Positions 20,514 through 57,346 of a DNA stretch of 64,000 nt are shown piece by piece (position 1 is the stretch's first letter; each line of letters starts with the position of its first letter). The notes beneath the pieces are model-generated. The model searched no databases, was not told the origin of the DNA, and was given only the letters and a program-made list of their open reading frames with translations. Origin of the DNA: Microbacterium murale (GTDB taxonomy: Bacteria > Actinomycetota > Actinomycetes > Actinomycetales > Microbacteriaceae); contig NZ_BMCM01000006.1 of assembly GCF_014635185.1 (NCBI RefSeq), forward strand, positions 225,830 to 289,829. The letters run 5' to 3'. The position numbers were made by a program, and so were the translations under genes.

Positions 20514-20523
20514 GGGGTTGACA
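20514..20523 (-). promoter_or_regulatory. TGTCAA-SSSS promoter motif, SDR (20448)
   Basis: TGTCAACCCC on the minus strand, 66 bases before the SDR start. The -10-like NAnnnT (GAAGCT) at the shared distance is weak. Confidence 0.5.
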
Positions 20524-20621
20524 CTTCGGCGGGCTAGTGAGATCACGTGCGGATGTCAACGGGGAGGCATCGCGTCGGTCGCCCTGAGAGGATGCGGGGA
20601 CAGCGAACGAAGGGAGCCGAC

Positions 20622-21623
20622 GTGAGCGAAGTGACGATCCTCGCACCGTCCCCGACCCTGACGGTGACCGTCGAGGATCACCCGCAGGGCTCGGAGATCC
20701 ACGTGCATGCCGGTGGGCAGGGTGTGTGGCAGGCCAGGATGCTGCGCAGACTCGACGTCTCGGTGACGATGTGCTGCGTCCTCATCGGAGAGGTCGGCCG
20801 TACCCTGAAGCACCTTCTGGAGGATGAGGGGATCACTGTCGTCGCCGTCGAGCGCGAGGGCCGCGGGTCCGCGTATCTGCACGATCGCCGTCAGGGCCAG
20901 CGCCTCGTGATCGCCGAGGAGGAAGGGGATGCGATCGACCGCCACGCTCGAGACGATCTCTACGGGGCGATGCTGCACAGCAGCGCCGAGTCCAAGGCCG
21001 TTCTTCTCAGCGGTCCGGCCGGCGACGCCACAGTGCCGTCCGACCTCTACCGCCGGCTGACGATCGATCTGCGCAGCGATGGGCGCCTGGTCATCGCCGA
21101 CCTCGCTGGTGAGCGTCTGGAGGCGGTCGTGGAAGGGGGCGTCGATGTGCTCAAGGTCAGTCATGAGGAACTGCGTCGCGATGGCCTCGTGCGCGAGGCG
21201 ACGGTGCCGGAGATCACGCACGCGATGCATGAGCTTCGCAGGCAGGGCGCCGGCGCGGTGATCGTGACGCGGTCATCCGAACCCCTGCTGGTCCTGGGCG
21301 ATCAGGGCCTCATCGAGGTGTCGCTTCCGTCGTTCGAGGAGAACGAGACGCGCGGGGCGGGCGATTCCCTCACCGCAGGCGTCGTGGCCGCGCTCACCCG
21401 CGGCGAGCATCTGCGAGATGCCGTCACGCTCGGCGCGGCCGCCGGCGCGCTGAACGTCACGCGCCACGGGCTCGGCACGGGCGACGCCGATGCGATCACA
21501 CAGCTGCGCGAGCGCGTGCAGGTGCGAGAGCTTCCACAGGGCGACGCGGATGAAGCGCCACGGGGACGAGTCAGTCCCGACGGACTGGCCGCGCTCGCGG
21601 AGGCCGAGACGGAGGAATCATGA
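20622..21623 (+). CDS. PfkB-family sugar kinase (1-phosphofructokinase-like)
   Basis: The 333-residue ribokinase-fold protein has the anion-hole and catalytic motif TRGAGDSLTAG (near residue 246), VDVLKVSHEEL and an N-terminal IHVHAGGQGVWQARMLRRLD resembling the sugar-binding region of 1-phosphofructokinase and tagatose-6-phosphate kinase. It would phosphorylate a sugar or sugar phosphate with ATP; the exact substrate is not visible. The GTG start follows AAGGGAG. Its stop overlaps the surE start (ATGA), an unusual pairing, so a role in nucleoside or phosphate turnover is possible. Confidence 0.83.
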   Translation: MSEVTILAPSPTLTVTVEDHPQGSEIHVHAGGQGVWQARMLRRLDVSVTMCCVLIGEVGRTLKHLLEDEGITVVAVEREGRGSAYLHDRRQGQRLVIAEEEGDAIDRHARDDLYGAMLHSSAESKAVLLSGPAGDATVPSDLYRRLTIDLRSDGRLVIADLAGERLEAVVEGGVDVLKVSHEELRRDGLVREATVPEITHAMHELRRQGAGAVIVTRSSEPLLVLGDQGLIEVSLPSFEENETRGAGDSLTAGVVAALTRGEHLRDAVTLGAAAGALNVTRHGLGTGDADAITQLRERVQVRELPQGDADEAPRGRVSPDGLAALAEAETEES

Positions 21624-22438
21624 CGCACCGGGCGCTGATCACCAACGATGACGGCATCGACGCACCCGGCCTCGTGGCACTGGCGGATGCCGCAGTGCAG
21701 GCCGGGCTCGAGGTCACGATCGCCGCGCCCGCCGCGCAGTCGAGCGGTTCGAGCGCCTCGATCATGGCGAGTGAATCCGATGGACGCATAGCCGTGGACC
21801 GCCGAACGCTGGATGCACTGCCGGACGTGCATGCTTTCGCGGTGCACGGTGGCCCTGGGCTGATCGCGATGATCGCGGCGCGCGGAGCGTTCGGGCCTGC
21901 GCCTGACCTCGTGCTCTCCGGTGTGAATCACGGCGCCAACGTCGGGCGGGCGATCCTGCATTCCGGTACCGTGGGCGCCGCCCTCACCGGCGCGTTGAAC
22001 GGGGCCTGGGCGATGGCCGTGTCACTCGACGTCGGAATGAATCCGCAGGCGTTCCACTGGGACACGGCCGCCCGCGCGGCCATGACGTTGCTTCCCACGC
22101 TGATGGCGCAGCCGCGAGGCACAGCACTCAACGTGAACGCGCCCAACCGCACCGACCCGCGCGGCATCCGCCAGTGCACACTGGCTCCGTTCGGCATCGT
22201 GCAGACGACCGTGGCGGAGAGCGACGAGAGTTACGTGCGCCTCGCCGTCGAGGAGTTGCCGAACATCCCCACGGATGACAGCGACGCCGCGTGCCTCGCC
22301 CAGGGGTGGGTCACGATGACGAGTGTCGACTCGGTCACCGAGCGCCCCATCGACGAGGATCAGCTGATCGGCGGGACCGTCGACATCTCCGCTGTTCCCG
22401 GTGCGGCCCCGGCGTCCGCAGGTTCGGGCACGAGGTAG
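21620..22438 (+). CDS. surE: 5'/3'-nucleotidase SurE
   Basis: This 272-residue SurE has the metal site NDDG at residues 9-12 and the family motifs SGVNHGANVG and HSGTVGAALTGALNG. SurE dephosphorylates nucleoside monophosphates and some polyphosphates and is linked to stationary-phase survival. It is coupled to the PfkB gene upstream. Its last 79 bases overlap the opposite-strand DUF7882 gene at 22360, so the C-terminal Ala/Pro-rich tail is constrained by two reading frames. Confidence 0.93.
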   Translation: MTHRALITNDDGIDAPGLVALADAAVQAGLEVTIAAPAAQSSGSSASIMASESDGRIAVDRRTLDALPDVHAFAVHGGPGLIAMIAARGAFGPAPDLVLSGVNHGANVGRAILHSGTVGAALTGALNGAWAMAVSLDVGMNPQAFHWDTAARAAMTLLPTLMAQPRGTALNVNAPNRTDPRGIRQCTLAPFGIVQTTVAESDESYVRLAVEELPNIPTDDSDAACLAQGWVTMTSVDSVTERPIDEDQLIGGTVDISAVPGAAPASAGSGTR

Positions 22439-22710
22439 AGGCCGGCCGGTGAGTTCGCCGTGAAGGCGAGCGCGTCGACCCATGCGCGATTCACTGAGGG
22501 CTGTCGCCCGCCGTAGTACTTGTAGACGATCGAGCTGCCGGGATGCACCCACACCGTCGTGCGGCCGCCGCCCACACTGGCGTCTTCGCGCCAGCTGAAC
22601 GCGAAAGGCTCACCGCGCCGCAGCTTCGCGCTGATCACGAGCTGCATGTGCAGCAGCGCACGGTCTTCGATCTCGACCTTGACGCCGCCCTCGTAGATGA
22701 ACTTGCCCAT
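22360..22710 (-). CDS. DUF7882 family protein (copy 1)
   Basis: The 116-residue protein begins MGKFIYEGGVKVEIEDRALL and contains the shared pattern EDRAL-H-KLRR-E-F-SW-GR-T-W-HP-N-W. It is the most divergent of three paralogues in the window (others at 52446 and 55101). Members are sometimes annotated as ATP-dependent DNA ligases, but the protein is far too short and lacks the ligase KxDG motif. The function is unknown; the fold looks like a small beta-rich domain. Its C-terminus is antisense to the end of surE. Confidence 0.83.
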   Translation of the reverse strand: MGKFIYEGGVKVEIEDRALLHMQLVISAKLRRGEPFAFSWREDASVGGGRTTVWVHPGSSIVYKYYGGRQPSVNRAWVDALAFTANSPAGLYLVPEPADAGAAPGTAEMSTVPPIS

Positions 22711-22824
22711 CGTGCCCCGACTTCCGTGCTGTTTCGTGCTCCTGCGCCAGTGCGCTCGCGCCCTGTGGATAGCCTACTAAGTCGTCATCGCTCCCAACTG
22801 CGCGCTAGCCCCGCGTAGGCCCGC

Positions 22825-22834
22825 GGTCAAGGCC
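22825..22834 (+). promoter_or_regulatory. GTCAA-SSSS promoter motif, FHA-like gene
   Basis: GGTCAAGGCC at 22825-22834 with TAGCCT (22859-22864) as a -10, about 33 bases from GTCAA, and the start codon at 22897. Confidence 0.55.
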
Positions 22835-22896
22835 CTCCTGTGCGGTTCCGGGGCCGCATAGCCTTGCGGTTCCAGTGAGTTCGAAGGGAGCCGGAC

Positions 22897-23394
22897 ATGA
22901 CCGATCAGACCGCGCCAGGGTACAAGCCGACCACGACCCACGCGGAATGGGGCGCGGGCGACCCGCGGCTGCTCATCTCGCGTGAGGACGATCGCAGCGT
23001 GCACCACATCACGACCGACACCGTGCGCATCGGTCTCGCTGACGGCAATGAGCTCCGACTCGACGACACGGACCCCGTGCACGCGACGATCACCCACGAC
23101 GAGCGGGACGAGTACGTGCTCACCCTGCACGGCGCGGGAGAGATGAACGCGAATCCGCTGTCCGCCGAGACGGACGGCGGCGACCGATCGGAGATCCTCC
23201 GTACCGGGGCTCGCTTCACGGCTGGGCCGTGGACCCTCGTGTTCAGCAGAGACGAGTTCGCGGATCACGGCCGCCCCTTCGGCGGCCGCGAGGGCGGCGA
23301 GTTCGATGATCAGCCACCGCAGCCGGCCCGACCGGATTACTCCCCGTCCGACGGCGACGGCCCCGATGGCGGGATGGAAGTGAAGGACGGCTGA
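22897..23394 (+). CDS. FHA-like domain protein
   Basis: The 165-residue protein has a region (about 30-120) reading VRIGLADGNELRLDD, HATITHDERDEYVLTLHG and RTGARFTAGPWTLVFSRDEFAD. The order resembles a forkhead-associated beta sandwich, although the classical GR..S..H signature is only partly present. The C-terminus is acidic, Gly/Pro-rich and probably disordered. FHA domains bind phosphothreonine; binding here is unproven. A motif-bearing promoter precedes the gene, and GAAGGGAG gives a good ribosome site. Confidence 0.7.
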   Translation: MTDQTAPGYKPTTTHAEWGAGDPRLLISREDDRSVHHITTDTVRIGLADGNELRLDDTDPVHATITHDERDEYVLTLHGAGEMNANPLSAETDGGDRSEILRTGARFTAGPWTLVFSRDEFADHGRPFGGREGGEFDDQPPQPARPDYSPSDGDGPDGGMEVKDG

Positions 23395-23402
23395 CTCGAA
23401 GC

Positions 23403-23412
23403 TGTCAACCCC
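23403..23412 (+). promoter_or_regulatory. TGTCAA-SSSS promoter motif, CBS gene
   Basis: TGTCAACCCC with the -10-like TATCGT about 34 bases from GTCAA. One of the two clearest examples of the shared arrangement. Confidence 0.65.
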
Positions 23413-23481
23413 CTCCGCACCCGCCGCCCGGCACACCTATCGTGACGCGAACCGGATGCACATGACGAGAGAGGAAAGAAG

Positions 23482-23928
23482 ATGACGCTTACGCGGGACA
23501 TCATGACTCCTGCACCGCGGTGCATCGGCGAGAACGACTCACTGAGTATCGCGGCATCGCTCATGTCCGAACTCGATGTGGGAGCACTGCCGATCTGCGG
23601 CGAGGACACGAAGCTGAAAGGCATGCTCACCGACCGCGACATCGTGGTCAGGGCTGTCGCCGAAGGCCTCGATCCCGAAAGCACCCCCGCACGCGCACTC
23701 GCAATGGGCAAGCCCGTGACCGTCGATGCCGCCGATGACATCCAGGACGCGCTCCAGAAGATGCGAGAGCACCGGATCCGGCGGCTTCCCGTCATCGAGA
23801 ATCGCCTGCTGGTCGGAATCATCAGTCAGGCTGACATAGCGCGTTCGCTGGCACCGGAGACCACCGGTGAGACTGTCGAGAGCATCTCTCGGCCGGAACC
23901 GAGTGTCCAGTATGCAACCCGCCGATGA
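23482..23928 (+). CDS. CBS-pair domain protein (Hrp1-like)
   Basis: This 148-residue stand-alone CBS pair has motif 1 at about residues 7-62 (DIMTPAPRCIGENDSLSIAA to KGMLTDRDIVVRAVAEG) and motif 2 at about 75-130 (PVTVDAADDIQDALQKM to VGIISQADIARSL). It resembles the hypoxic response protein Hrp1 of Mycobacterium in length and layout. CBS pairs bind adenine nucleotides and act as energy or stress sensors. The 3' end overlaps the cinA start, so the two are cotranscribed from a TGTCAA-type promoter. Confidence 0.9.
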   Translation: MTLTRDIMTPAPRCIGENDSLSIAASLMSELDVGALPICGEDTKLKGMLTDRDIVVRAVAEGLDPESTPARALAMGKPVTVDAADDIQDALQKMREHRIRRLPVIENRLLVGIISQADIARSLAPETTGETVESISRPEPSVQYATRR

Positions 23929-24424
23929 CATCGGCCGGCTCGGTCAGTTGGCTATCACGCACGAACTTCGTATCGCTGTGGTCGAGTCGCTCACATCGGG
24001 CGGTCTGGCGCATGCGATCGGTGCGGGCGAGGAAGCGAGCCGATGGTTCGCAGGGGGCATCGTCGCGTATATGACCGACGTCAAGCAGCACCTGCTGAAA
24101 CTGACGGCAGGGGTCGACCCGTGCTCTGTTGAATGCGCCGAGCAGCTTGCTGTCGGTGGCCTTGAATTGTTCGCGGCCGATGTCTGCATCTCCACAACCG
24201 GTGTCGGCGGGCCCGACCCAGAGGACGGGCACCCCCCGGGAACGGTCTATCTGGGCTGGGCGACGCACGATCAGCAAGGGCATGAACACCTCCAGCTCGA
24301 CGGTGGTCCCGACGCGGTGCTGGCCGCGACGGTCGACGCCGCCCTCCATCTCCTGCGTGCCCGCGCAGAACAGCTCGCCCACCATGCCGACGCTGTCGGC
24401 GTATGGTCCCACCACCCGATGTGA
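23912..24424 (+). CDS. CinA family protein (C-terminal type)
   Basis: This 170-residue protein corresponds to the CinA C-terminal domain alone. Motifs are VVESLTSGGLAHAIG, WFAGGIVAYMTDVKQHLL and VCISTTGVGGPDPEDGHPPGTVYLGW. Related enzymes deamidate nicotinamide mononucleotide (PncC). The canonical SAESCTGG is here VESLTSGG, with the key Ser kept. ATG 23912 lies within the 3' end of the CBS gene, which suggests coupling. Competence-linked CinA carries an additional N-terminal domain not present here. Confidence 0.85.
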   Translation: MQPADDIGRLGQLAITHELRIAVVESLTSGGLAHAIGAGEEASRWFAGGIVAYMTDVKQHLLKLTAGVDPCSVECAEQLAVGGLELFAADVCISTTGVGGPDPEDGHPPGTVYLGWATHDQQGHEHLQLDGGPDAVLAATVDAALHLLRARAEQLAHHADAVGVWSHHPM

Positions 24425-24460
24425 CCTAGGACTCGACATCGAAACTGAAGGAGACGAATC

Positions 24461-24733
24461 ATGCCACGCGGCGCGAACTCACGTTTGAAGGACCCGGAGC
24501 TGTACGAGGAGCTCCGCGACGACGGCGCCTCGAAAGAGAAGGCGGCACGCATATCGAACGCCACCGGCGGGACCAAACGCGGGCGGTCGGAGGTCGGCCG
24601 ACGCGGCGGCGAGGCCGGCGACTACGACGACTGGACGGTCGACGAGTTGCGCGGTCGCGCCAAGGAACTCGGCCTCACCGGATACTCCAAGAAGCGGAAG
24701 TCCGAGCTCATCGACGCGCTTCGGAACCACTGA
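24461..24733 (+). CDS. Rho N-terminal/SAP-like small basic protein
   Basis: The 90-residue protein has a charged N-terminal half (LKDPELYEELRDDGASKEKAARISNATGG) and a C-terminal Rho_N/SAP-like helix-turn-helix WTVDELRGRAKELGLTGYSKKRKSELIDALR. Such domains bind nucleic acid, and short proteins of this layout are common in actinobacteria next to stress genes. GAAGGAGACGAATC precedes the ATG. It follows cinA by 36 bases and may belong to the same transcript. Its last 26 bases overlap the convergent oxidase gene. Confidence 0.83.
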   Translation: MPRGANSRLKDPELYEELRDDGASKEKAARISNATGGTKRGRSEVGRRGGEAGDYDDWTVDELRGRAKELGLTGYSKKRKSELIDALRNH

Positions 24734-26006
24734 TCGTCAGCACGCGATCGAGGTGGCTGTTGCGGAACTTCCCCGCGGGGTCGACGCGCGCGGCGAGCGC
24801 CGCGAAGTCGCCAAGGCGGTGGAAGCCTGCAGCCTGATCGAATCCGGTCGAGTAGACCTTGCCCCAGTGCGCGCGCGGCGCGAAGGGGCGAAGCGCCGCC
24901 TCGATCTCCGGCAGGATGGCGGCGACTTCGGCAGGAAGCTGGCGCCAGGTGAAGTGGATGGCGAGCCGTCCGCCGCCCTCGCCCCCGCTGAGCCAGAGGT
25001 CGTCCCCCGCGAAAGTGCGGAACTCGCTCACGTGCAACAGCGGGTCGATCCGGTCGCCGAGCGGGCGGATGGCGCGCAGCGCATCGACTGCCACCGCACG
25101 GGGCACGAAGAACTCGGACTGGATCTCGTCGCCACCGGCGCTTGGGTCACGGTCGAAGCGGAAATGCGCGAGCCGCGTCGACCATGCACCGCGCGTACCC
25201 AGCGGCGTCATGTTGTCATCTGGTGCATCGCCGGTGATGATGGCGTGCACTTCGGCGGCGACTCGCTCTCCGCCGAACGCCCTCGGCGCAGCATCCGCTG
25301 ACCCGCCCTGATCCGTGAGAGCGCGATGTTTGAGCCACAGCGTCGACAGCGTCGACTGCGCCCATTTGCCGAGCACGCTGACGCTGTACGCCGACGCCAT
25401 GATCTCGTCGAACTCCGCAAGGAAAGTGTCCCAACCCAAGCCGGTGTACACCTGCTGCGTCACGTCGTACGTCGGTTCGATCGCCAGCTGCAGCCTGGTG
25501 ATGACCCCGAGAGCGCCGAGCGCGACGACGCTGCCGTCGAAATCGGGGTCGCCGGCGTGGATCCACGTCAGCTCGCCGTCTGCGCCGATGCGCTCGATGC
25601 CGCGCACAGCTGTCGACAGCACGCCGTTGCCGTCGCCGGAGCCGTGGGTGGCGGTCGCTGTCGCGCCCGCCACGGAGATGTGGGGCAGCGAGCCGAGGTT
25701 GTGCAGCCCCCAGCCGTGCTCGTGCAGGAACGCGGCGACGGCTCCGTACGGCGCCGCGCCGGGCACGGTGACCGTCTGCGTGGTCTCATCGAGTTCGAAC
25801 GGTGAGACGACATCGCGGAGCGAGATGAGCTGGGGAGCATCGGCGAGGTCGTTGAAGGAGTGGCCGGTGCCCAGCGCTCTGATCCGAGATGCATCCGCGA
25901 CGAGCTGCTGCGCCTCGGGGATGTCTCGCGGGCGCAGGACCGTCGTCGGCGTGAAGACGACGTTGCCCGCCCAGTTGCTGATCGCGTTGCGGCCTGTGAG
26001 TGTCAT
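24708..26006 (-). CDS. FAD-dependent alditol oxidase
   Basis: This 432-residue flavoprotein of the vanillyl-alcohol oxidase fold begins with an FAD domain. GTGHSFN contains the histidine that carries covalent FAD in alditol oxidases. The C-terminal ALO domain ends with RPFAPRAHWGKVY (HWGK motif) and FRNSHLDRVL. Related enzymes oxidise xylitol, sorbitol or other alditols with O2, releasing H2O2. ATG 26006 is chosen as the usual N-terminus; the frame is open to 26057. Polyol substrates are also expected for the 31-41 kb operon, but no direct link is visible. Confidence 0.88.
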   Translation of the reverse strand: MTLTGRNAISNWAGNVVFTPTTVLRPRDIPEAQQLVADASRIRALGTGHSFNDLADAPQLISLRDVVSPFELDETTQTVTVPGAAPYGAVAAFLHEHGWGLHNLGSLPHISVAGATATATHGSGDGNGVLSTAVRGIERIGADGELTWIHAGDPDFDGSVVALGALGVITRLQLAIEPTYDVTQQVYTGLGWDTFLAEFDEIMASAYSVSVLGKWAQSTLSTLWLKHRALTDQGGSADAAPRAFGGERVAAEVHAIITGDAPDDNMTPLGTRGAWSTRLAHFRFDRDPSAGGDEIQSEFFVPRAVAVDALRAIRPLGDRIDPLLHVSEFRTFAGDDLWLSGGEGGGRLAIHFTWRQLPAEVAAILPEIEAALRPFAPRAHWGKVYSTGFDQAAGFHRLGDFAALAARVDPAGKFRNSHLDRVLTISGSEARR

Positions 26007-26058
26007 TCGTCCATCATGCCGTGACGGATGCCCGTCGGTTGCCGGATGCCGTCGCACA

Positions 26059-26625
26059 TCACTTCCGCGGCAGCACGGTCAGCACGCGCTGGATGTGATC
26101 GCGGAACTCCATCATGTACGCACGCAGGAACTCCTCGGTATCCGGCTTCGTGACCGTGCCGTCGTCGTGGAAGACGTCTTCGGTGAAGTGGATGTAGGCC
26201 TCCGGCGCCGTCATGTGGCGGGTGTTGCAGAACGCCAGTACCGCCCGGAGGCTCTGCTGCGCGACGGCGGTGCCGATGACCCCGATGGATGCTCCGATGA
26301 CAGCCGTCGGCATATGGTCGAAGGAATTCTCTCCCCAGGGGCGCGAAGCCCAGTCGATCGCGTTCTTGAGCGCGCCGGGGATCGATCGGTTGTATTCCGG
26401 TGTCACGAAGAGGATCGCGTCGCTCGCGCCGATCGCGTCCTTCAGAGCACGCGCTTCTGCGGGGTAGTCGGCGTCATGATCGGGGCTGTAGAGCGCAAGG
26501 TCGCCGATAGGGATCTCGGTGAATTCCAGATCATCCGGTGCAACCCGGATGAGCGCCTTGGACAGCACGCGATTGATCGACGTCGACGACAGGCTTCCGA
26601 CGAAATAGCCGACTTTGTACGACAT
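26059..26625 (-). CDS. NADPH-dependent FMN reductase
   Basis: This 188-residue flavodoxin-like protein has the FMN phosphate loop GSLSSTSINR and the family motif PEYNRSIPGALKNAIDW. Members reduce FMN, quinones, chromate or azo dyes with NAD(P)H. It is separated from the upstream + strand genes by a divergent promoter region. It lies 52 bases before the oxidase on the same strand and could be cotranscribed with it. Confidence 0.92.
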   Translation of the reverse strand: MSYKVGYFVGSLSSTSINRVLSKALIRVAPDDLEFTEIPIGDLALYSPDHDADYPAEARALKDAIGASDAILFVTPEYNRSIPGALKNAIDWASRPWGENSFDHMPTAVIGASIGVIGTAVAQQSLRAVLAFCNTRHMTAPEAYIHFTEDVFHDDGTVTKPDTEEFLRAYMMEFRDHIQRVLTVLPRK

Positions 26626-26721
26626 GGGTTCTCCTCACGACTCGAGCGAATGCCTCCAGTGTGCGCTCACGACCTCGCGTACGGAAGGCTCCCCGCCGCA
26701 GATGCCGACCCTGAGGGCTGT

Positions 26722-26731
26722 TGTCAAGGGT
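26722..26731 (+). promoter_or_regulatory. TGTCAA-SSSS promoter motif, small membrane protein operon
   Basis: TGTCAAGGGT, 57 bases before the start at 26788. A -10-like CAGGAT lies at the shared distance but is a weak match. Confidence 0.5.
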
Positions 26732-26787
26732 GCTTCCCTGCTCGCTCTCGTGCGACAGGATCGTCTCAAGGGCGGAGAGGAGCCGAC

Positions 26788-26901
26788 ATGTCAGGTGACG
26801 GTGAGACAAGAAGTGCGATGCGCACCGCGTTCTGGTCGTGGACGGTGATCATCGTTGTCGGACTCGCGGTCATGATCATCCTGCCGCTGATCGGCCGTTG
26901 A
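26788..26901 (+). CDS. Small single-pass membrane protein, 37 residues
   Basis: A short frame with a strong ribosome site (GGAGAGGAG) encodes MSGDGETRSAMRTAFWSW followed by one hydrophobic segment TVIIVVGLAVMIILPLIGR. It ends five bases before the DUF6766 gene, so the two are cotranslated. It could be a subunit or regulator of that membrane protein. The coding case rests on the ribosome site, the clear helix and tight spacing. Confidence 0.65.
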   Translation: MSGDGETRSAMRTAFWSWTVIIVVGLAVMIILPLIGR

Positions 26902-26906
26902 TCGCC

Positions 26907-27584
26907 ATGCGTCATTTCCTCCGCACCAGCAGTCTCAGCCTCGCGTCCCTGATCATCTTCGTGCTCGCACTCCTCGGCCAGTCCTTCGCCGGTCACGCGT
27001 ACAACAACGAAGAGCTCATGCAGCACGGACAGGCGCCGGTGACGTACATCGACTTCGTCACTTCGTCGGACTTCCTCGTCGATGTCGCAGAGAACTGGCA
27101 GTCCGAGTTCCTCCAGTTCTTCCTCTTCATCCTGGCGACGATCTGGCTGATCCAGCGCGGATCGCCCGAGTCGAAGAAGTACGGCGACGAAGGCACCGGA
27201 ACCGATGAAGAACAGATGGTGGGCGCGCACGCCAGGGCCGACTCTCCCCGCTGGGCGAAGGTGCGAGGCGTGCGCCTGTGGATCTACTCGAACTCCCTGT
27301 TGATCGCGATGGGAACTGTCTTCCTGCTCTCGTGGCTGGCGCAGTCCCTCGCCGGCCATGTCGTGGCCAATCAGGAGAACGCGCAGCACGGCGTGCCGCT
27401 GGAGACGTGGGGCGACTACATCGTCTCCCCTGACTTCTGGAACCGCACTCTGCAGAATTGGCAGTCCGAGTTCCTCGCCGTCGGCGCGATGGTCGCGTTC
27501 TCGATCTACCTCCGCCAGCGGGGCTCCAGCGAATCGAAGCCCGTCGGCGTCCCCCATCACATCAGCAGCGTCGAATCGGAGTGA
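26907..27584 (+). CDS. DUF6766 family membrane protein with internal duplication
   Basis: The 225-residue protein has four transmembrane segments arranged as two repeats. Each repeat reads helix, Q-S-AGH, N-E-QHG, S-DF, NWQSEFL, helix, QRGS-ESK (about residues 5-90 and 120-215). The conserved extracytoplasmic HG and DF residues might bind a metal or haem, but this is speculation. DUF6766 has no known function. It is part of a four-gene cluster with a lipoprotein and a CDF transporter. An in-frame TTG at 26898 overlaps the previous stop; ATG 26907 is preferred. Confidence 0.82.
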   Translation: MRHFLRTSSLSLASLIIFVLALLGQSFAGHAYNNEELMQHGQAPVTYIDFVTSSDFLVDVAENWQSEFLQFFLFILATIWLIQRGSPESKKYGDEGTGTDEEQMVGAHARADSPRWAKVRGVRLWIYSNSLLIAMGTVFLLSWLAQSLAGHVVANQENAQHGVPLETWGDYIVSPDFWNRTLQNWQSEFLAVGAMVAFSIYLRQRGSSESKPVGVPHHISSVESE

Positions 27585-27587
27585 GAG

Positions 27588-49445: not shown

Positions 49446-49502
49446 GATCGCATCCTTTCGTCTGATGCGCTCACGCTAGCCCCGCCGTCGACCGCGCCCG
49501 AG

Positions 49503-49512
49503 TGGGTTGACC
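49503..49512 (-). promoter_or_regulatory. GTCAA-SSSS promoter motif, acidic protein operon
   Basis: GGTCAACCCA on the minus strand with TAGCGT about 33 bases downstream, 58 bases before the start. One of the clearest examples. Confidence 0.65.
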
Positions 49513-49537: not shown

Positions 49538-50020
49538 TCAGCCCACGCCGCCGTCGAGGCTCTTGCGCATGAACAGCTGGGCCGTTCCGTCACCCTGATC
49601 CACCCGCTCGGCGACCCGGTATCCGCAGCTCTCGTACAGTCTCACGTTGGCCTCGCTCAGGCTGCCGGTGAACAGCTCTGCTTCCGGCGCTCGCGCGTCG
49701 CGTTCGGCGGCCTCGAGAAGGCTTCTGCCGATCCCGGAGCCCTGCATGTCGGGGGCGATGGCGATCCGTCCGATGAGAAGCAGGTCATCCGTCTCCCTGA
49801 CGCGGATCGCGCCGACCAGTCGCGGCCCCACCCTGGCGACCCAGCCGTTCGCGTCCGCCAACTCCGCGCGCAGCTCTTCCAGCGTCTGCGTGAGGGGCGG
49901 CATGTCGGCCGTGCCGTAGATCAGGGCTTCCGAGGCGAAGGCTGCTCGCTGAACCGTGAGCACCTCACCGGCGTCGGCCGGTGAGATCCGCGACAGGATG
50001 ATCTCCGGCTCACTCGCCAT
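49538..50020 (-). CDS. GNAT-family N-acetyltransferase
   Basis: The 160-residue protein has the acetyl-CoA motif IAIAPDMQGSGIGRSLLEAAERDA and a C-terminal ANVRLYESCGYRVAER, the standard GNAT fold. The acceptor cannot be predicted. It starts inside the last codons of the APC permease gene (11-base overlap), so it is cotranscribed and may act on the transported compound. Confidence 0.88.
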   Translation of the reverse strand: MASEPEIILSRISPADAGEVLTVQRAAFASEALIYGTADMPPLTQTLEELRAELADANGWVARVGPRLVGAIRVRETDDLLLIGRIAIAPDMQGSGIGRSLLEAAERDARAPEAELFTGSLSEANVRLYESCGYRVAERVDQGDGTAQLFMRKSLDGGVG

Positions 50021-51335: not shown

Positions 51336-51371
51336 CGCCCAAATCTAGAGGCCGCCCTGGGCGCTCTCACA

Positions 51372-51381
51372 GCCCTTGACA
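51372..51381 (-). promoter_or_regulatory. TGTCAA-SSSS promoter motif, APC permease
   Basis: TGTCAAGGGC on the minus strand with TAGATT about 33 bases downstream and the start at 51335. The transcript leader would be very short. Confidence 0.6.
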
Positions 51382-51393
51382 ACGGTGCGGCGT

Positions 51394-52377
51394 TCATGGG
51401 GTCTGATCGTCGTGCGCCTCTTCCACCCGTATCCGACGAGCCTCCGCCACATCGGCCCTGTCCTTGCGCACCACCACGGCGATCCGGCTGGCGTCCCGCA
51501 GCGGCAGCTGCACCTGGGTCTCAGCGGGCACGCCCCGACGAAGCTCGCGGATGCGCTCCAGTTCCGTGTCGAACTCCACTCCGACCAGCAAGGCCATGTT
51601 CGCGATCCACATCCACAGCGCGAAGACGATGACTGCGGCGAACGAACCGTAGACACGTTCGTAGTTCGCGAAGTTGGCCACGTAGAGGCCGAAGCCGGCA
51701 GAGGCGACTGCGAGCACGGCGATCGCCACCGCCGCGCCGAGGCTGATCAAGCGGAACCGCGGCGGCCGGATGTTCGGGCTGAAGTAATAGAGGAACGCGA
51801 CGACGAACACGACGAGCACGACGAGCAGTGGCCATCTCACGACGCGCCAGACGAACAGCACGCTCTCCCCGAGCCCCAGCGCGTTCCCCACGGCGTGCGC
51901 GACCGGCCCGGAACCCACGATCAGCAGGACCGCGATCACGGCACAGACGATGGTGACCACGGCGATGACGAGCTGGATCGGCACGAGCGTCCAGAGACGC
52001 CGCCCCTCTTCGACGCCGTAGATCCGGTTCATTCCGCGCCCGAGCACGCCGACGTAGCGCGACACCGACCAGATCGACAGCAGCACTCCGAAGACGAGCA
52101 GAAGGCCGGACATACGCAGGTCGGCGAGTTCTCCGAGGAAGTCGCTGAGCCCGCTCGCTGCTTCCTCCGGCGCGATCGCACGCGTGACATCGACGAGAAT
52201 CTGCGCCGTCTCGTCATCGCGCCCGAGCACGCTGAGGACCGAGAACCCCACCATCGTGGCCGGAAGCAGCGCGAGGATCGCGTAGAAGGCGAGGCTCGCC
52301 GCGACGTCGGCACAGCCGTCGGCCAAGAACGCGCGGAAGATCCGTCGGAGGATGAAGGCCGTTGAGCGCGTGGTCAT
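51394..52377 (-). CDS. YihY/BrkB-family membrane protein
   Basis: The 327-residue protein has six helices with the family motifs DVAASLAFYAILALLPATMVGFSVL, SRYVGVLGRGMNRIYGVEEGR, YYFSPNIRPPRFRLISLGAAVAI and SFAAVIVFALWMWIANMALLVGVEFDTELER. The family (formerly RNase BN) is of unknown transport function and is often stress-related. ATG 52377 is preferred over an upstream frame start at 52449, which overlaps the DUF7882 gene and the promoter. Confidence 0.88.
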   Translation of the reverse strand: MTTRSTAFILRRIFRAFLADGCADVAASLAFYAILALLPATMVGFSVLSVLGRDDETAQILVDVTRAIAPEEAASGLSDFLGELADLRMSGLLLVFGVLLSIWSVSRYVGVLGRGMNRIYGVEEGRRLWTLVPIQLVIAVVTIVCAVIAVLLIVGSGPVAHAVGNALGLGESVLFVWRVVRWPLLVVLVVFVVAFLYYFSPNIRPPRFRLISLGAAVAIAVLAVASAGFGLYVANFANYERVYGSFAAVIVFALWMWIANMALLVGVEFDTELERIRELRRGVPAETQVQLPLRDASRIAVVVRKDRADVAEARRIRVEEAHDDQTP

Positions 52378-52413
52378 CCCCACACTCTCGTGCTTCGCCG
52401 CCGCGGCACCATG

Positions 52414-52423
52414 CCCCTTGACA
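52414..52423 (-). promoter_or_regulatory. TGTCAA-SSSS promoter motif, BrkB gene
   Basis: TGTCAAGGGG on the minus strand, 37 bases before the start at 52377. The -10-like GAGAGT at the shared distance is imperfect. Confidence 0.55.
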
Positions 52424-52445
52424 CCGCGTCTGCGCACAGCCCGAG

Positions 52446-52757
52446 TCACTCCTGTGTCTCGAGCACCTCATCGATCAGGGAGATGCCACCCGTCGAATTC
52501 GCGGTGTGCATGAGCTCTTCGATCCATCGCGCGTTCAGCGGTCCGGCCTCCGGCTCGTCGAACACGAAGCGCAGAGGGATCGACGGGTGAACCCAGATCG
52601 TGGAGCGCCCGACGGCGTCGCCGTCGGCGTGCTTCCACGACATGGTGAACGATTCCTGGCGACGGAGCTTCGTCGCGATGACGACCTTGAGGTGCGCCAG
52701 CGCGCGGTCCTCTACGTGAATCGGATCCGCTGACCCGCCGTACTGAATCGAACCCAT
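52446..52757 (-). CDS. DUF7882 family protein (copy 2)
   Basis: The 103-residue protein starts MGSIQYGGSADPIHVEDRAL. It shares with copy 3 (55101) VVIAT-LRR-ESFT-SW, GRSTIW-HPSIPLRFVF, N-RWIE-LM and STGGI. The two are clearly more similar to each other than to copy 1, which points to a recent duplication or parallel retention. The function is unknown. It lies between the FUSC and BrkB genes on the same strand. ATG 52757 is chosen by alignment with the other copies. Confidence 0.82.
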   Translation of the reverse strand: MGSIQYGGSADPIHVEDRALAHLKVVIATKLRRQESFTMSWKHADGDAVGRSTIWVHPSIPLRFVFDEPEAGPLNARWIEELMHTANSTGGISLIDEVLETQE

Positions 52758-52801
52758 ACGCTGACCGTAGCGCATGACGGATGCTGCTTCGAACGCCGTG
52801 T

Positions 52802-53926
52802 TCAGGTGTCGACATCGCCCCTGGGTGCGCGCTCTCGCCCCTGCTGCTCATCGCGCGAGCGCAACAGCAGCAGTATCCGCCGCAGATGCATGCCGATGAC
52901 GACTCCCGGGCCGATCGCCTGCCCTGAGTTGACGGCGATCCTGTTCACCTCTTCGAGCAGGAGACGAACCGCCCTCGCTGCGCCTTCGCGCGATCGATGC
53001 GCTTCGGCGCTGTCATCGTCATCCTGTTCGATGCAGTCGGCGACTCGCTGACATGCTTCGCTCAGCGGGTCTGCCAGGTCCGCATCAAGACCCAGTCCTC
53101 CCGGCCTTTCCCAGATCGCGTCGGCGAGCGTTTCCGAGATGTCGCGGGTGCGCACGGCGATCAGCTCGAGCACCTCCAGCCGATCGTGCACATCGGAGGT
53201 GCCATGCCGACCGCGCATAGCCCTCGGGTTTCCCTTACGGCTCGTGTCGGCCTCGACCAGCGCCCGCCGCACCTCCCGCGACGTGTCGGCCAGGGCCGCG
53301 GCATCCCTCACCCATGCGTCGCGTTCCGGCGGCCACGATTCCGACACCGCCTCGCCGATGTCGTGCAGGTGCCTGGCGAGCTGTCTGCGAAAAGCGGCCA
53401 CGCGGGCTGCGGCGACACCGGTGAGAATGCGAGGGGCGATGAGCAGGTTGACCGCGAGGCCGACCGCCACTCCGACCGCCATCTGGGTGAGGTATCCCAG
53501 CGAGTAATCGTCTGAGTTCTGGCCGCCGATGATCAGCACGAACAGCGCGGCGATCGGCACGTACTCCTGCCCTACGCCGAACCAGCCCGTGCCCGACAGC
53601 AGCACGCCGATCCCGGCGACGAGCGGTATCGTCCACCAGTTCGGTCCGACCGTCACGACCACGACGAGCGCGAGTCCGATGCCGACGGCGAGCCCGAGCA
53701 GGGTCTGCAATCCCGACTTGGCGGACTCCATCAACGTCGGATACATGCTCAGCAGGGCACCGAGCGGGGCATAGTACGGATATTCGTCCGTCACACCGGG
53801 CATATGCGGTGCGATGGCCCAGGCGATCCCGACCGCAAGGGCAGCTTTGGCAGCCAGCAGCAGGCGGGCGGACTGGAAGGCGCTCCTCAGCGTCTCGAAC
53901 CGTTCACGGGTCACGCCGGATGACAT
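52802..53926 (-). CDS. FUSC-family (aromatic acid exporter-like) membrane protein
   Basis: The 374-residue protein has six N-terminal helices (about residues 20-170) with YPYYAPLGALLSMYPTLMESAKSGLQTLLGLAVG, a hallmark of the FUSC/ArAE family. A cytoplasmic helical C-terminal half ends in an Arg-rich tail. Family members export aromatic acids or support envelope integrity. The start overlaps a 21-codon leader ORF (53911-53976) with the only good ribosome site nearby, so translation is probably coupled to that leader. Confidence 0.85.
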   Translation of the reverse strand: MSSGVTRERFETLRSAFQSARLLLAAKAALAVGIAWAIAPHMPGVTDEYPYYAPLGALLSMYPTLMESAKSGLQTLLGLAVGIGLALVVVVTVGPNWWTIPLVAGIGVLLSGTGWFGVGQEYVPIAALFVLIIGGQNSDDYSLGYLTQMAVGVAVGLAVNLLIAPRILTGVAAARVAAFRRQLARHLHDIGEAVSESWPPERDAWVRDAAALADTSREVRRALVEADTSRKGNPRAMRGRHGTSDVHDRLEVLELIAVRTRDISETLADAIWERPGGLGLDADLADPLSEACQRVADCIEQDDDDSAEAHRSREGAARAVRLLLEEVNRIAVNSGQAIGPGVVIGMHLRRILLLLRSRDEQQGRERAPRGDVDT

Positions 53927-53976
53927 CGGCGTCTGCCCACTGCTCTGTCCGGTTCCGGATCACCATTCACGAGCAT
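53911..53976 (-). CDS. Leader ORF overlapping the FUSC start
   Basis: GAAGAGGAG precedes an ATG at 53976 that opens a 21-residue frame (MLVNGDPEPDRAVGRRRC and three more). It ends 15 bases inside the FUSC gene, in a different frame. FUSC itself has no good ribosome site. Translational coupling or regulation is the likely role; the peptide may have no function of its own. Confidence 0.4.
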   Translation of the reverse strand: MLVNGDPEPDRAVGRRRCHPA

Positions 53977-54034
53977 GACGGCTCCTCTTCTCGACGTGGA
54001 CCCTCAGTCTGGACTTCGCAGGCGATGACGGCCA

Positions 54035-54044
54035 GGGGTTGACA
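54035..54044 (-). promoter_or_regulatory. TGTCAA-SSSS promoter motif, FUSC gene
   Basis: TGTCAACCCC on the minus strand with CAGACT about 32 bases downstream, 59 bases before the leader ORF. Confidence 0.5.
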
Positions 54045-54087
54045 TCGCGGGGCGCGTCGATCGCAGTGCATGCCGGGCGCGGGCGGC

Positions 54088-54890
54088 TCAGACCGTTCGC
54101 CAGTCGTGCGAGGTGACGGCGGCTCCGGCCTGCGGCCCCATCTGGAGCATGCCCCCGTCGATGACCAGTGTCGTGCCGGAGATGTACCCGGCCTCCGGTG
54201 AGGCCAGGAACGCGATGAGCGCCGCGACCTCGCGGGCGTCTCCCGGGCGTCCAAGAGGAATGCCAGGTTGATCGATCTGCCTCGGGTCGACGTCCGCCTG
54301 ACCGGAAGCGGCCGTCGCGATCGCTCCCGGCGCGACGCTCACCGCGCTGATCCCGTGAACGCCGAGCTCGAGTGCCAGGTTCTTCATGAGCCCGTTGAGA
54401 CCGTGCTTGGCAGCGTCGTATGCGCTGTAGCCGACCATGGGCTGATGCGCGTGCACGCTGGTCACCGCGATGAGCCTGCCCCTCGGCCTGCGGCGACCAT
54501 TGAGCGCGCAGCGCGCTGCAGGCATATGAATGCGCCGGTCAGATCGGTGTCGAAGACGCGGTTCCATTCCTCGAGTGAGAGGTCGAGGAACGGAGTGTGC
54601 GTGCCGATGCCCGAGTTGTTGACGAAGACCTCGAGGCCGCCGAGTTCTTCGATGATCGCGTCGATGATGTCGCCGCAACCCGGAATGTCCGTCACATCGA
54701 GCTGGGCGACGACGGCCCTGGAGCCGTGACTGCGCACCTCGGCCGCGGTCTGCTCGGCGCCTTCCCGGTCGGTGTGCCAGGTGACAGCGACGTCATGGCC
54801 GGCGGCGGCGAGTGCGACCGCTGTCGCACGGCCGATGCCCGAGTCCGACCCTGTGACGATCGCGCGATGCGGTCCGCGCTCAGCGCTCAT
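54088..54890 (-). pseudogene. SDR oxidoreductase with a frameshift
   Basis: The 5' part reads MSAERGPHRAIVTGSDSGIGRA (cofactor motif), NNSGIG and RVFDTDLTGAFICLQRAARSM, then runs into a stop at 54462. The 3' part continues in another frame with RLIAVTSVHAHQPMVGYSAYDAAKHGL (catalytic Ser, Tyr, Lys) and an intact C-terminus. One extra G in the GGGG run at 54479-54482 would join the two into a normal SDR of about 268 residues. It is therefore a recent frameshift, a slippage site or a sequencing error. A leader ORF overlaps the start. Confidence 0.8.
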
Positions 54891-54951
54891 CGCGTGCCTC
54901 GGCATCGTCTGTCCACCGGAGCGCTGCGTTGCCTCGCTGAGATTCGGACAT
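54880..54951 (-). CDS. Leader ORF overlapping the frameshifted SDR start
   Basis: GAGGAGGAG lies seven bases before an ATG at 54951 that opens a 23-residue frame beginning MSESQRGNAALRWTDD. It ends 11 bases inside the SDR gene in another frame. The SDR start at 54890 has no comparable ribosome site. The arrangement repeats that of the FUSC gene next door. Confidence 0.4.
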   Translation of the reverse strand: MSESQRGNAALRWTDDAEARDER

Positions 54952-55017
54952 GATCGTTCTCCTCCTCGCTCGTCACTCGTCTGTGCAGTTTCATCCCGAC
55001 GAGCCGCTTCGCCATCG

Positions 55018-55027
55018 GGGGTTGACA
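55018..55027 (-). promoter_or_regulatory. TGTCAA-SSSS promoter motif, frameshifted SDR
   Basis: TGTCAACCCC on the minus strand, 67 bases before the leader ORF. The -10-like GAAACT is two bases off the shared spacing. Confidence 0.45.
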
Positions 55028-55100
55028 TCGCCGGACGGTCCAGTCGCCGGGAGGTGATCAGGTGCTTCTGACTTTGAGACTCGAGGTCTACCGTTCTGTC

Positions 55101-55412
55101 ATGGGCACTCTTTACTACAACAGCACCGGAACGCCGATCCACATCGAGGATCGGGCCCTCGCGCATCTGAAGGTCGTCATCGCCACACGGCTCCGCCGAC
55201 ACGAGAGCTTCACCCTGTCCTGGCGGCATCCCGACGGCGAACCCGTCGGTCGCTCCACGATCTGGCTGCACCCCTCGATACCCCTGCGCTTCGTGTTCGA
55301 GGAACCGGAGCCGCCTGCACTCAACGGCCGCTGGATCGAAGACCTCATGAACTCCGTGAGTTCGACGGGCGGTATCGTCCTCGTCGAAGAGATGACCGAA
55401 CCGAACGAATAG
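55101..55412 (+). CDS. DUF7882 family protein (copy 3)
   Basis: The 103-residue protein starts MGTLYYNSTGTPIHIEDRAL and ends in an acidic tail. It is closely similar to copy 2 at 52446 over its whole length. TACCGT just before the ATG and TTCTGA 17 bases upstream of it could be a promoter for a nearly leaderless mRNA. Function is unknown. An open frame extends upstream to 55062, but ATG 55101 matches the start of the other copies. Confidence 0.82.
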   Translation: MGTLYYNSTGTPIHIEDRALAHLKVVIATRLRRHESFTLSWRHPDGEPVGRSTIWLHPSIPLRFVFEEPEPPALNGRWIEDLMNSVSSTGGIVLVEEMTEPNE

Positions 55413-55425
55413 TCTCCGGTCGCCG

Positions 55426-55728
55426 TCACCCTGACGGGTTATCCAGCGGCATGCCGTCCTCGTCGGTCGTCTCGGGCAGTCCGTCCGAACGCGCGGGCCG
55501 GTCGCCGACGACGGCCACACCGTCATCCGGCCCGCCGCCGTCTGTGATCACGCCGCTCGGCGTCGCCTCCTCGACGGTATGCCGAGACCCGTGCTGCCTG
55601 GCGAAGTCGAGGCCCGCGGCGACGGCCTCTTCTCGGCTGCTGAAGCTGAGGGAGAGCTCGTTGGCTCCCTCAACCTCGTTGACCCATTGGCCCTGTTTGT
55701 CCCTGGTGACAACATCCAGATGCGACAA
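55426..55728 (-). CDS. DUF2188-like protein
   Basis: The 100-residue protein reads SHLDVVTRDKQGQWVNEVEGANELSLSFSSREEAVAAGLDFARQHGSRHTV with an acidic C-terminal tail. The order W-N-EG-S-F-EA-A-A fits DUF2188, small beta-alpha proteins of unknown role. It starts with TTG, preceded by GGGAGGTAGGG. A motif-bearing promoter lies 79 bases upstream, back to back with that of the dehydrogenase gene. Confidence 0.75.
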   Translation of the reverse strand: MSHLDVVTRDKQGQWVNEVEGANELSLSFSSREEAVAAGLDFARQHGSRHTVEEATPSGVITDGGGPDDGVAVVGDRPARSDGLPETTDEDGMPLDNPSG

Positions 55729-55806
55729 TTCCCTACCTCCCGGTGCGACGTCGTTCTCGGTTTCTGATCCGCCGCCACGCTAAGACGGTTCACGCCCGTC
55801 ATCGAG

Positions 55807-55816
55807 GCCCTTGACA
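55807..55816 (-). promoter_or_regulatory. TGTCAA-SSSS promoter motif, DUF2188 gene
   Basis: TGTCAAGGGC on the minus strand with TAGCGT about 33 bases downstream; one of the clearest examples. Confidence 0.65.
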
Positions 55817-55851
55817 GCGCGATGGTGCCGGCTCCGACAACTTCACCCTCT

Positions 55852-55861
55852 TGTCAACCCG
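55852..55861 (+). promoter_or_regulatory. TGTCAA-SSSS promoter motif, MDR dehydrogenase
   Basis: TGTCAACCCG on the + strand with GAATGT about 33 bases downstream, 56 bases before the start. It faces away from the copy at 55807, giving a divergent pair. Confidence 0.55.
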
Positions 55862-55916
55862 TTTGGCGTAGGCCGGCTCGTCTGCGAATGTCGCGGGACG
55901 AGAGAGGGAGGATGAC

Positions 55917-57092
55917 ATGAAGGCACTCACCTGGCAGGGCAAGCGCAACGTCACAGTGGAAGAGGTCGCCGACCCGGTCATCGAACAGCCGACGGATGCC
56001 GTCATCAGGGTGACCTCGTCGGCCATCTGCGGCTCCGACCTTCACCTTTACGAGTTGTTGGGACCGTTCATCGACCGCGGAGACATCCTCGGCCATGAGC
56101 CGATGGGCACGGTCGTGGAGATCGGATCGGATGTGGCGGAGCTTGCTGTCGGCGACCGCGTCGTGATCCCGTTCAACATCGCCTGCGGGCACTGCTTCAT
56201 GTGCCGTCATGGTCTGCAGTCGCAGTGCGAGACGACGCAGGTCCGCGAATACGGCAGCGGTGCCGCGCTGTTCGGCTACACGAAGCTGTACGGCCAGGTT
56301 CCCGGCGGGCAGGCGGAATACCTTCGCGTGCCGCTCGCCGACTACAACCACATCCGCGTCGGGGCGGACCTCCCCGACGATCGATACCTCTACCTGAGCG
56401 ACATCCTTCCCACCGCGTGGCAGGGCGTCGAATACGCGCATGTGCCCGAAGGCGGCACGCTCGCGATCATGGGGCTCGGCCCGGTCGGCCAGTTCGTCTC
56501 CCGCATCGGCATCCACCGCGGATATCGTGTGCTCGCGGTCGATCCGGTGCCGGAACGTCGCGAGATGGCCGAGCGGCACGGTGTGCTGACGTACGACCTG
56601 ACAGACACGGTGGTCGATGAACTCCGCGACCTCACCGACGGGCGCGGCGCCGATTCGGTCGTCGATGCCGTCGGGCTGGAGGCGCACGGTTCCGCCGGAA
56701 TCGGTCTGATGCAGCAGGCAGTAGGTCTGCTGCCGGATGCGGTCGCCAGGCCCATGCTCGACAAAGCGGGGGTGGATCGGCTCGCGGCGCTGTACGCGTC
56801 GATCGATCTCGTGCGCCGAGGCGGCACAGTGTCGCTCAGTGGCGTCTACGCTGGCGACGCCGACATCCTGCCGATGAAGACGATGTTCGACAAGCAGCTG
56901 AGTCTGCGCATGGGGCAGTGCAATGTGAAGCGCTGGATCGACGATCTGCTTCCGCTCGTCGAGGATCCTGCCGATCCACTGGGCGTAATGGACCTCGCGA
57001 CGCACCACGCCTCGCTCGACGAGGCACCGGATCTCTACGCAACCTTCCAGCGCAAGGAGGACGGTTGCATCAAGGTCGTACTGAACCCCTGA
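55917..57092 (+). CDS. MDR dehydrogenase, glutathione-independent formaldehyde dehydrogenase-like
   Basis: The 391-residue zinc dehydrogenase has SSAICGSDLHLYE and GHEPMGTVVEIG (catalytic zinc), ACGHCFMCRHGLQSQC (structural zinc), and MGLGPVGQFVSRIGIHRGYRVLAVDPVPER (NAD, Asp after beta-2). The insert after residue 240 (VDAVGLEAHGSAGIGLMQ) and the length match the formaldehyde dismutase/FDH-like branch. It may detoxify aldehydes. GGGAGGATGAC precedes the ATG. Confidence 0.87.
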   Translation: MKALTWQGKRNVTVEEVADPVIEQPTDAVIRVTSSAICGSDLHLYELLGPFIDRGDILGHEPMGTVVEIGSDVAELAVGDRVVIPFNIACGHCFMCRHGLQSQCETTQVREYGSGAALFGYTKLYGQVPGGQAEYLRVPLADYNHIRVGADLPDDRYLYLSDILPTAWQGVEYAHVPEGGTLAIMGLGPVGQFVSRIGIHRGYRVLAVDPVPERREMAERHGVLTYDLTDTVVDELRDLTDGRGADSVVDAVGLEAHGSAGIGLMQQAVGLLPDAVARPMLDKAGVDRLAALYASIDLVRRGGTVSLSGVYAGDADILPMKTMFDKQLSLRMGQCNVKRWIDDLLPLVEDPADPLGVMDLATHHASLDEAPDLYATFQRKEDGCIKVVLNP

Positions 57093-57105
57093 CCGTATCC
57101 GCCGG

Positions 57106-57282
57106 TCAAAGACGGCGAGGCGGTGGGTTCTGAGAATCCTTGGGATCCGCCACTGCGGGTGTGCCTTCGTCGACGCCGTCAGGTGTGATCGGCTCGAAGC
57201 CGGAGTCGTCCTCCCTCGTCTCTTCGAGAGGCACATCGGTCAGCTGCTGTTCTTCGCGTGGGTCTTTCGCATCAGACATCAT
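57106..57282 (-). CDS. Small acidic protein, 58 residues
   Basis: From ATG 57282, preceded by GGAAGGA at good spacing, the frame reads MMSDAKDPREEQQLTDVPLE, continues acidic and ends NPPPRRL. It is hydrophilic and probably disordered. A GTCAA-type promoter lies 55 bases upstream. It resembles in style the acidic proteins at 14959 and 49080. Function is unknown. Coding is supported by the ribosome site, promoter and composition, not by a known family. Confidence 0.6.
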   Translation of the reverse strand: MMSDAKDPREEQQLTDVPLEETREDDSGFEPITPDGVDEGTPAVADPKDSQNPPPRRL

Positions 57283-57336
57283 GGATTCCTTCCGTTGGTC
57301 AATACACCTTGCCCGGGGAACCGTGCGGGGTGCCAG

Positions 57337-57346
57337 GGCCTTGACT
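57337..57346 (-). promoter_or_regulatory. GTCAA-SSSS promoter motif, small acidic protein
   Basis: AGTCAAGGCC on the minus strand with CAAGGT about 34 bases downstream, before the small gene at 57282. Confidence 0.5.

Follow-up and report, generated by a model that had tools for sequence, protein, structure and literature searches.

The locus and its promoter boxes

We analysed a 64 000-nucleotide stretch of the Microbacterium murale genome (G000:C6:225830-289829; the genome comprises 3.90 Mb in 18 contigs), referred to below as the window, in which genes of several families are preceded by a common promoter element consisting of a TGTCAA-like box, a run of G/C bases and a -10-like hexamer (NAnnnT) about 33 bases downstream. 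An initial annotation, made from the sequence alone, had proposed 12 such sites as a candidate stress regulon; in a read-out of every site, all 12 were found at the positions given, each oriented toward its gene. A 13th site that was absent from that annotation lies at 20554 on the plus strand. For sites on the minus strand the number by which a site is called is the 5′ end of the motif, and offsets to the hexamer (in parentheses below) are counted from the G of GTCAA.

20484..20523, minus strand: box TGTCAACCCC with GAAGCT (33), preceding an SDR gene (20448-19573)
20554..20593, plus strand: box TGTCAACGGG with GAGGAT (33), preceding a PfkB-family kinase gene (20622-21623)
22825..22864, plus strand: box GGTCAAGGCC with TAGCCT (33), preceding an FHA-like gene (22897-23394)
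23403..23443, plus strand: box TGTCAACCCC with TATCGT (34), preceding a CBS-domain gene (23482-23928)
26722..26761, plus strand: box TGTCAAGGGT with CAGGAT (33), preceding a DUF6766 gene (26838-27584)
49473..49512, minus strand: box GGTCAACCCA with TAGCGT (33), preceding a small acidic protein gene (49445-49080) and an FMN_red gene (49083-48484)
51342..51381, minus strand: box TGTCAAGGGC with TAGATT (33), preceding an APC permease gene (51335-50010)
52384..52423, minus strand: box TGTCAAGGGG with GAGAGT (33), preceding a BrkB gene (52377-51394; leaderless type)
54006..54044, minus strand: box TGTCAACCCC with CAGACT (32), preceding a FUSC gene (53926-52802) and then a DUF7882 gene
54987..55027, minus strand: box TGTCAACCCC with GAAACT (34), preceding a second SDR gene and divergent from the DUF7882 gene at 55101
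55777..55816, minus strand: box TGTCAAGGGC with TAGCGT (33), preceding a DUF2188 gene (55728-55426)
55852..55891, plus strand: box TGTCAACCCG with GAATGT (33), preceding a zinc-type MDR dehydrogenase gene (55917-57092)
57306..57346, minus strand: box AGTCAAGGCC with CAAGGT (34), preceding a small acidic protein gene (57279-57106)

The gene at 22897-23394, called FHA in the initial annotation, has no Pfam match. The coding sequence of the second SDR gene (window 54060-54930, minus strand, downstream of the 55027 box) is divided between two frames, owing to a frameshift or a sequencing error.

Statistics of the box and the composite element

The first T of the box is variable: nine of the 12 annotated sites begin with TGTCAA, which had been given as their common start, and the others with GGTCAA (22825 and 49512) or AGTCAA (57346). 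The G/C run after the core is present at all 12 as CC or GG plus G/C at the next three bases, and the hexamer about 33 bases from GTCAA stands at offset 32 (54044), 33 (eight sites) or 34 (23403, 55027 and 57346). The pattern GTCAA(CC|GG)S occurs 16 times in the window, and the 12 occurrences with NAnnnT at offsets 32–34 are identical to the 12 sites annotated earlier; random window positions carry NAnnnT at a rate of 0.0776 (7.8%), which gives a binomial P of about 6e-11. The four occurrences without NAnnnT at these offsets are at 11740 (minus), 15596 (plus), 43793 (minus) and 60147 (plus). Sampling 400 kb of this genome gave 35 GTCAA(CC|GG)S motifs, of which four form this composite with NAnnnT. 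No excess was seen in four other offset bands, whose counts range from 0 to 1 within the window and from 2 to 6 in the sampled 400 kb.

The longer pattern TGTCAASSS is found 11 times in the window versus 3.05 times in dinucleotide shuffles, none of 100 of which reached 11, and is followed by NAnnnT at 32–34 in ten of the 11 cases versus none of four in the 400-kb sample. The window, which makes up 1.6% of the genome, holds ten of the 23 genome-wide TGTCAA(CCC|GGG) and four of the six genome-wide TGTCAACCCC. The signal resides in the composite and in boxes of CCCC form, not in the bare 9-mer; a check against background, as suggested in the initial annotation, is passed by the composite when window and 400-kb sample are compared, but genome-wide the bare 9-mer would not pass. 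Outside the window, 13 TGTCAA(CCC|GGG) and eight TGTCAAGGC sites were read by eye and four looked promoter-like, preceding genes for a small acidic protein (L035), an SDR (L038) and Dps (L044 and L045). The remaining sites have no -10 at the right place or seemingly lie within coding DNA.

Promoter anatomy in relatives

Relatives' sites collected by TGTCAACCCC alone carry NAnnnT at 32–34 in 64 of 113 cases, with a start codon 40–115 bases on in 52 of those 64. The stricter hexamer TAnnnT was counted 6, 21 and 13 times at offsets 32, 33 and 34 of 114 relatives' sites, versus eight times in total over the remaining offsets between 20 and 47. An ATG or GTG stands 46–47 bases from the T of the box at 18 of 70 relatives' sites, most other offsets having counts of 0–5; the count of 12 at offset 38 was read as the GTG inside TAGCGTG. 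The chosen start lies 6–8 bases past the -10 at 17 of the 114 sites (ten, five and two cases), in a set for which the start picker favoured starts at 44–50, and in the window the APC permease start is likewise six bases past the -10 (leaderless type). Leaderless mRNA would explain both the ATG/GTG peak and the short distance from -10 to start; it would fix +1 and place the box at -46 to -37. This agrees with the placement in the initial annotation, and we infer +1 here from the -10 and the leaderless-type starts.

Upstream of the box no more than 0.19 bits was found at any of 30 positions (44 sites chosen for their -10), and T is present at -35 in 26 of the same 44 sites. The box would therefore be a single asymmetric half-site ending where the -35 begins; by its inferred position it stands immediately upstream of the -35, as WhiB7-type boxes do. 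The distance to the -10 is 24 bases from SSSS and 28 bases from TGTCAA. A palindromic dimer site of the CRP or DosR type was rejected, there being no second half-site, and so was a divergent promoter (TGTCAA is TTGACA reversed), with nothing conserved at the expected divergent -10.

Two unusual arrangements were seen among the relatives. In L234 (258-301, minus strand) three copies of TGTCAACCCC with 17-base spacing lie upstream of a small acidic protein gene, with a -10 at offset 33 for the nearest copy only. In L018 and L241 a YtxH-like gene has the box followed by a conserved inverted-repeat-like element, TGCCGAAANCGGCATA, in place of the usual -10; this element may be another control site.

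Distribution in the genus and the family

Across 59 genomes of the genus Microbacterium, TGTCAACCCC occurs 275 times versus 34 for the reversed control and is present in 58. Of 296 genomes sampled from the class, 14 belong to the same family and together gave 68 versus 9 reversed (summed by hand); the counts of the other 282 were much nearer even, as judged by eye. Among 149 Microbacteriaceae genomes, 131 contain TGTCAACCCC. When the composite TGTCAACCCC-N-T-N22-TAGCGT-SG was scanned over 84,980 species, 41 stretches were returned, of which 40 are from Microbacteriaceae and one is from Spirosoma. Seven named genera are represented (Microbacterium, Agromyces, Agrococcus, Klugiella, Microcella, Pseudolysinimonas and Homoserinibacter; six lineages were checked). 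A scan of related Microbacterium genomes had been suggested earlier; the box is indeed enriched in the genus, but its spread is not confined there and reaches the family.

Target genes

Families were assigned to 84 distinct first genes behind relatives' boxes and include ferritin-like/Dps (11 genes), SDR (8), TspO (7), DJ-1/PfpI, CBS and DUF7218 (6 each), BrkB and FMN_red (2 each) and single cases of Mn-catalase, catalase and Pyrid_ox_like. The element is common to unlinked genes and, judging from family names, its targets are protective ones of several kinds. The activator-box reading of the initial annotation, with a -10 about 33 bases downstream and a stress regulon behind it, is supported by the fixed spacing in relatives and by these stress gene families.

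Window proteins were also compared with 104 first genes behind relatives' boxes (E 1e-5). Close orthologues were found for four of the 13 window targets; 11 control genes, also taken from the window, had no match. The SDR (20523) has nine rows behind relatives' TGTCAACCCC, eight long and one short open reading frame, in which L073 and L123 look like one site; the CBS gene (23403) has seven rows behind boxes, in which L072 and L123 look like one site; the APC permease (51381) has four orthologues and the FHA-like gene (22825) one (L244), all behind TGTCAACCCC. The eight matches of the second SDR (55027) are the same SDR rows at 30–41% identity and were not counted as orthologues. In L025 and L156, an orthologue of FMN_red (the operon-mate behind the 49512 box) stands directly behind a box. 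A DUF6766-like gene is seen by eye downstream of CGTCAACCCC in L276, as is an MDR-like gene downstream of TGTCAACCCC in L274. Some relatives' larger stretches contain similar islands (gene names by eye). One further window gene has boxed relatives:

24461..24733, plus strand: DUF7218/Rho_N gene, with no box seen upstream here and a box preceding its orthologue in six relatives (six rows)

The target kinds resemble those of the Bacillus SigB and mycobacterial SigF general stress regulons (Dps, catalase, DJ-1/PfpI, SDR, CBS and Pyrid_ox_like). The present promoters differ in combining a housekeeping-like -10 with a fixed upstream box, and no dedicated SigB/F-type sigma factor was seen in this genome.

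Search for the regulator

None of the 149 family genomes has a match above the cut-off of the NCBIfam SigB/F/G model; 17 genomes come near it (197–228 bits), one scores 164 and the rest are at or below about 137 bits. The best match in this genome, 131.5 bits versus a cut-off of 234, lies in the frame read as SigA. The model is strict, being over cut-off in one of 14 control genomes, and is blind to a primary-like (group 2) SigB as opposed to SigA. By reading of 15 of the 24 sigma-region-4 matches of this genome (five of the 15 in part), no second primary-like sigma factor was seen; these loci comprise SigA, FliA-like and extracytoplasmic function (ECF)-like proteins and response regulators. 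Wbl proteins are represented by two matches in this genome. No regulator for the box was found in the literature searched (open PMC text, mostly by listing). Single, non-recurring regulator genes of LacI-, MerR- and TetR-like types occur behind boxes, and one genome has a Ser/Thr protein kinase gene downstream of a full box with a TAGAGT -10 (L023), a possible signalling link.

DUF7882

When neighbouring genes were clustered, DUF7882 ranked second in number of loci (11 loci, 16 copies); the longest member of the top cluster has 678 residues. This genome has four DUF7882 matches, three of them in the window and two of these divergent from box promoters:

22360..22710, minus strand: DUF7882 gene, divergent from the 22825 promoter, with no box in its own 230 upstream bases
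52446..52757, minus strand: DUF7882 gene, between the FUSC and BrkB genes
55101..55412, plus strand: DUF7882 gene, divergent from the 55027 promoter, with no box in its own 230 upstream bases

DUF7882 was found in ten of 11 own-family genomes and none of 185 others of the class sample, a list that is ordered by kinship and shows all but 166 genomes without a match, and in 74 of 80 chosen genomes; copies lie near boxes in several relatives. Three of the 59 genus genomes (G004, G026 and G043) lack it, among them the sole genome without TGTCAACCCC. Their box excess is 0, -1 and 3 versus a mean of 4.3 (Mann–Whitney P 0.015), and one of their six sites is promoter-like versus 57 of the 91 sites read elsewhere in the genus (Fisher P 0.037); both comparisons involve small numbers of related genomes. 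Counterexamples are G397, which has no DUF7882 and yet seven TGTCAACCCC versus no controls (pattern counts only), and ten of 12 genomes that were picked for lacking the exact box and carry DUF7882. DUF7882 is physically linked to the regulon, with these exceptions, and is possibly involved in signalling.

The AlphaFold model of DUF7882 (predicted local distance difference test score 82.7) contains no helix-turn-helix by reading of its element list. Compared with PDB structures it gave no usable match (best E 0.72, probability 0.06), and the sequence compared with solved structures at E up to 1 gave two chance-level hits only. The family (PF25355) was deposited for presumed cytoplasmic transducers of CryoRhodopsins, which are proposed ultraviolet (UV) sensors (PMC12227055; cited, like every article here, from excerpts). 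It is the same protein family, in the same bacterial family, that is linked to the regulon here; no rhodopsin gene came to notice in the loci that were read, and no search was aimed at rhodopsins. In L274 and L275, topoisomerase IB-like genes lie beside DUF7882 and box genes, and L275 also has an ATP-dependent DNA ligase-like gene (by eye).

Interpretation and alternatives

The sites are probably activator boxes of a Microbacteriaceae general stress regulon acting on housekeeping-type promoters. The computations show directly the box with its spacing and orientation, the restriction of the composite to the family and the conservation of targets; the transcription start, activation rather than repression, the sigma contact and the stress signal are what we infer from them. 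Several observations weigh against the box or against this reading of it. Bare TGTCAASSS is at background genome-wide (99 versus 111 for the reversed pattern), and among the 13 TGTCAA(CCC|GGG) outside the window only L035 and L038 look promoter-like by eye. Several window -10 hexamers are poor (GAAACT, CAGACT and GAAGCT). Eight of the 13 targets (20554, 26722, 49512, 52423, 54044, 55816, 55852 and 57346) have no orthologue behind relatives' boxes, no regulator gene recurs there (by eye and in the family tally, best 25 of 45 families), and the presumed stress function is read solely from gene families. TGTCAAGGGC, although present in the window, shows no excess in the genus (162 versus 191 reversed, summed by hand), the GGG form being supported by the window and single sites such as L112 and L115. 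The TGTCAACCCC excess is, by eye, smaller in family genomes outside the genus, and some excess also occurs in individual genomes from other families (for example, G128 with 14 versus 5 and G282 with 10 versus 1). In 30 genomes, all but two from other genera, Dps promoters identified by homology have the full box in five cases, a shortened CAA-SSSS in six and neither in 19; the box code drifts outside the genus and is not fixed across genera.

The background count of the bare 9-mer would suit chance or the composition of a GC-rich genome, an explanation that we rejected and regard as virtually excluded by the composite statistics, the conserved targets and the restriction of the composite to one family. 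Hardly more credible is a role of the box as the -35 element for an alternative sigma factor, as its fixed distance to the -10-like hexamer might suggest: sigma-factor -35 and -10 elements are about 16–19 bases apart, so that 24 bases (from SSSS) or 28 (from TGTCAA) is too long, the -10 is housekeeping-like and the SigB/F/G model finds no match over cut-off in the family. This reading was also rejected. An operator for a repressor is quite improbable; repressor sites usually overlap -35 to +1 at variable positions, and contact with polymerase is what the strict spacing to the -10 (32–34, mode 33) and the place upstream of the -35 would fit.

More weight attaches to two protein families, each still on the unlikely side. 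A Wbl protein bound to region 4 of SigA might read the box as WhiB7 does, and Wbl proteins are actinobacterial; however, the two Wbl matches of this genome read as WhiB1 and WhiB2 types, which we take to be widely distributed, unlike the composite with its restriction to one family, and we know of no Wbl protein that reads TGTCAA. By analogy, WhiB7 is the closest precedent for the position of the box, in that its SigA-type promoters too carry a specific box just before the -35 (PMC3905903, PMC10245118; review PMC6282962). That box is AT-rich and read by an AT-hook (PMC3905903), in contrast to TGTCAA and a GC tract here. The WhiB3 structure is reported to hint at a disfavoured A-track or a favoured GC (PMC10245118). 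All told, a Wbl reader seems doubtful. A little less doubtful, though we would not expect it, is that DUF7882 proteins are the regulator or its obligate signalling partner. They are family-restricted, clustered in the window and near relatives' boxes, genus genomes without them have a lower box excess and fewer promoter-like sites, and the proposed role as cytoplasmic CryoRhodopsin transducer (PMC12227055) would fit a signalling partner. Against this stand the boxes of G397, the DUF7882 genes of ten of the 12 box-less genomes, the model without a helix-turn-helix or a PDB match better than E 0.72 and the small tests on related genomes; the linkage may merely mark DUF7882 as another stress gene, and loss of an island would remove both.

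Proposed mechanism and implications

On the activator-box reading, the -10 of each promoter would be of SigA type, TAnnnT at best and in many cases TAGCGT. The -35 would be poor, its second base being T, and would directly follow the box [T]GTCAA-SSSS, which would span about -46 to -37. The centre of TGTCAA would lie near -43.5 and that of the -35 near -33.5, so that the activator most likely shares a DNA face with sigma region 4, one helical turn upstream of it. Because the spacing is fixed, the half-site single and asymmetric and the distance from the -35 one helical turn, an activator bound in one major groove may touch sigma region 4 and compensate for the poor -35. The regulon would include Dps, catalases, DJ-1/PfpI, SDRs, CBS proteins and small acidic proteins. 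The RecA-NDp motif differs in sequence and lies about eight bases from the -10, a short spacing compared with the 24 bases between box and -10 here. The PafBC/RecA-NDp system is alike in having a non-palindromic activator motif and a stress regulon in actinobacteria (PMC6789036). In a more speculative extension, to which we give low credence, the regulon would operate without sigma-B through this single-half-site activator, and DUF7882 would carry the stress signal (UV in some species) to it.

A general stress regulon is of a known kind; such control of one appears to be new, as far as can be seen from the open PMC text searched. The regulon may be an output of the CryoRhodopsin/DUF7882 pathway, a matter that the paper naming the family, in its excerpts, defers to future work (PMC12227055). 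The search for the regulator becomes concrete, with one short bait DNA. For a whole bacterial family, with sigma-B not found in the present genome, the general stress regulon would become predictable through a promoter code that can be read.

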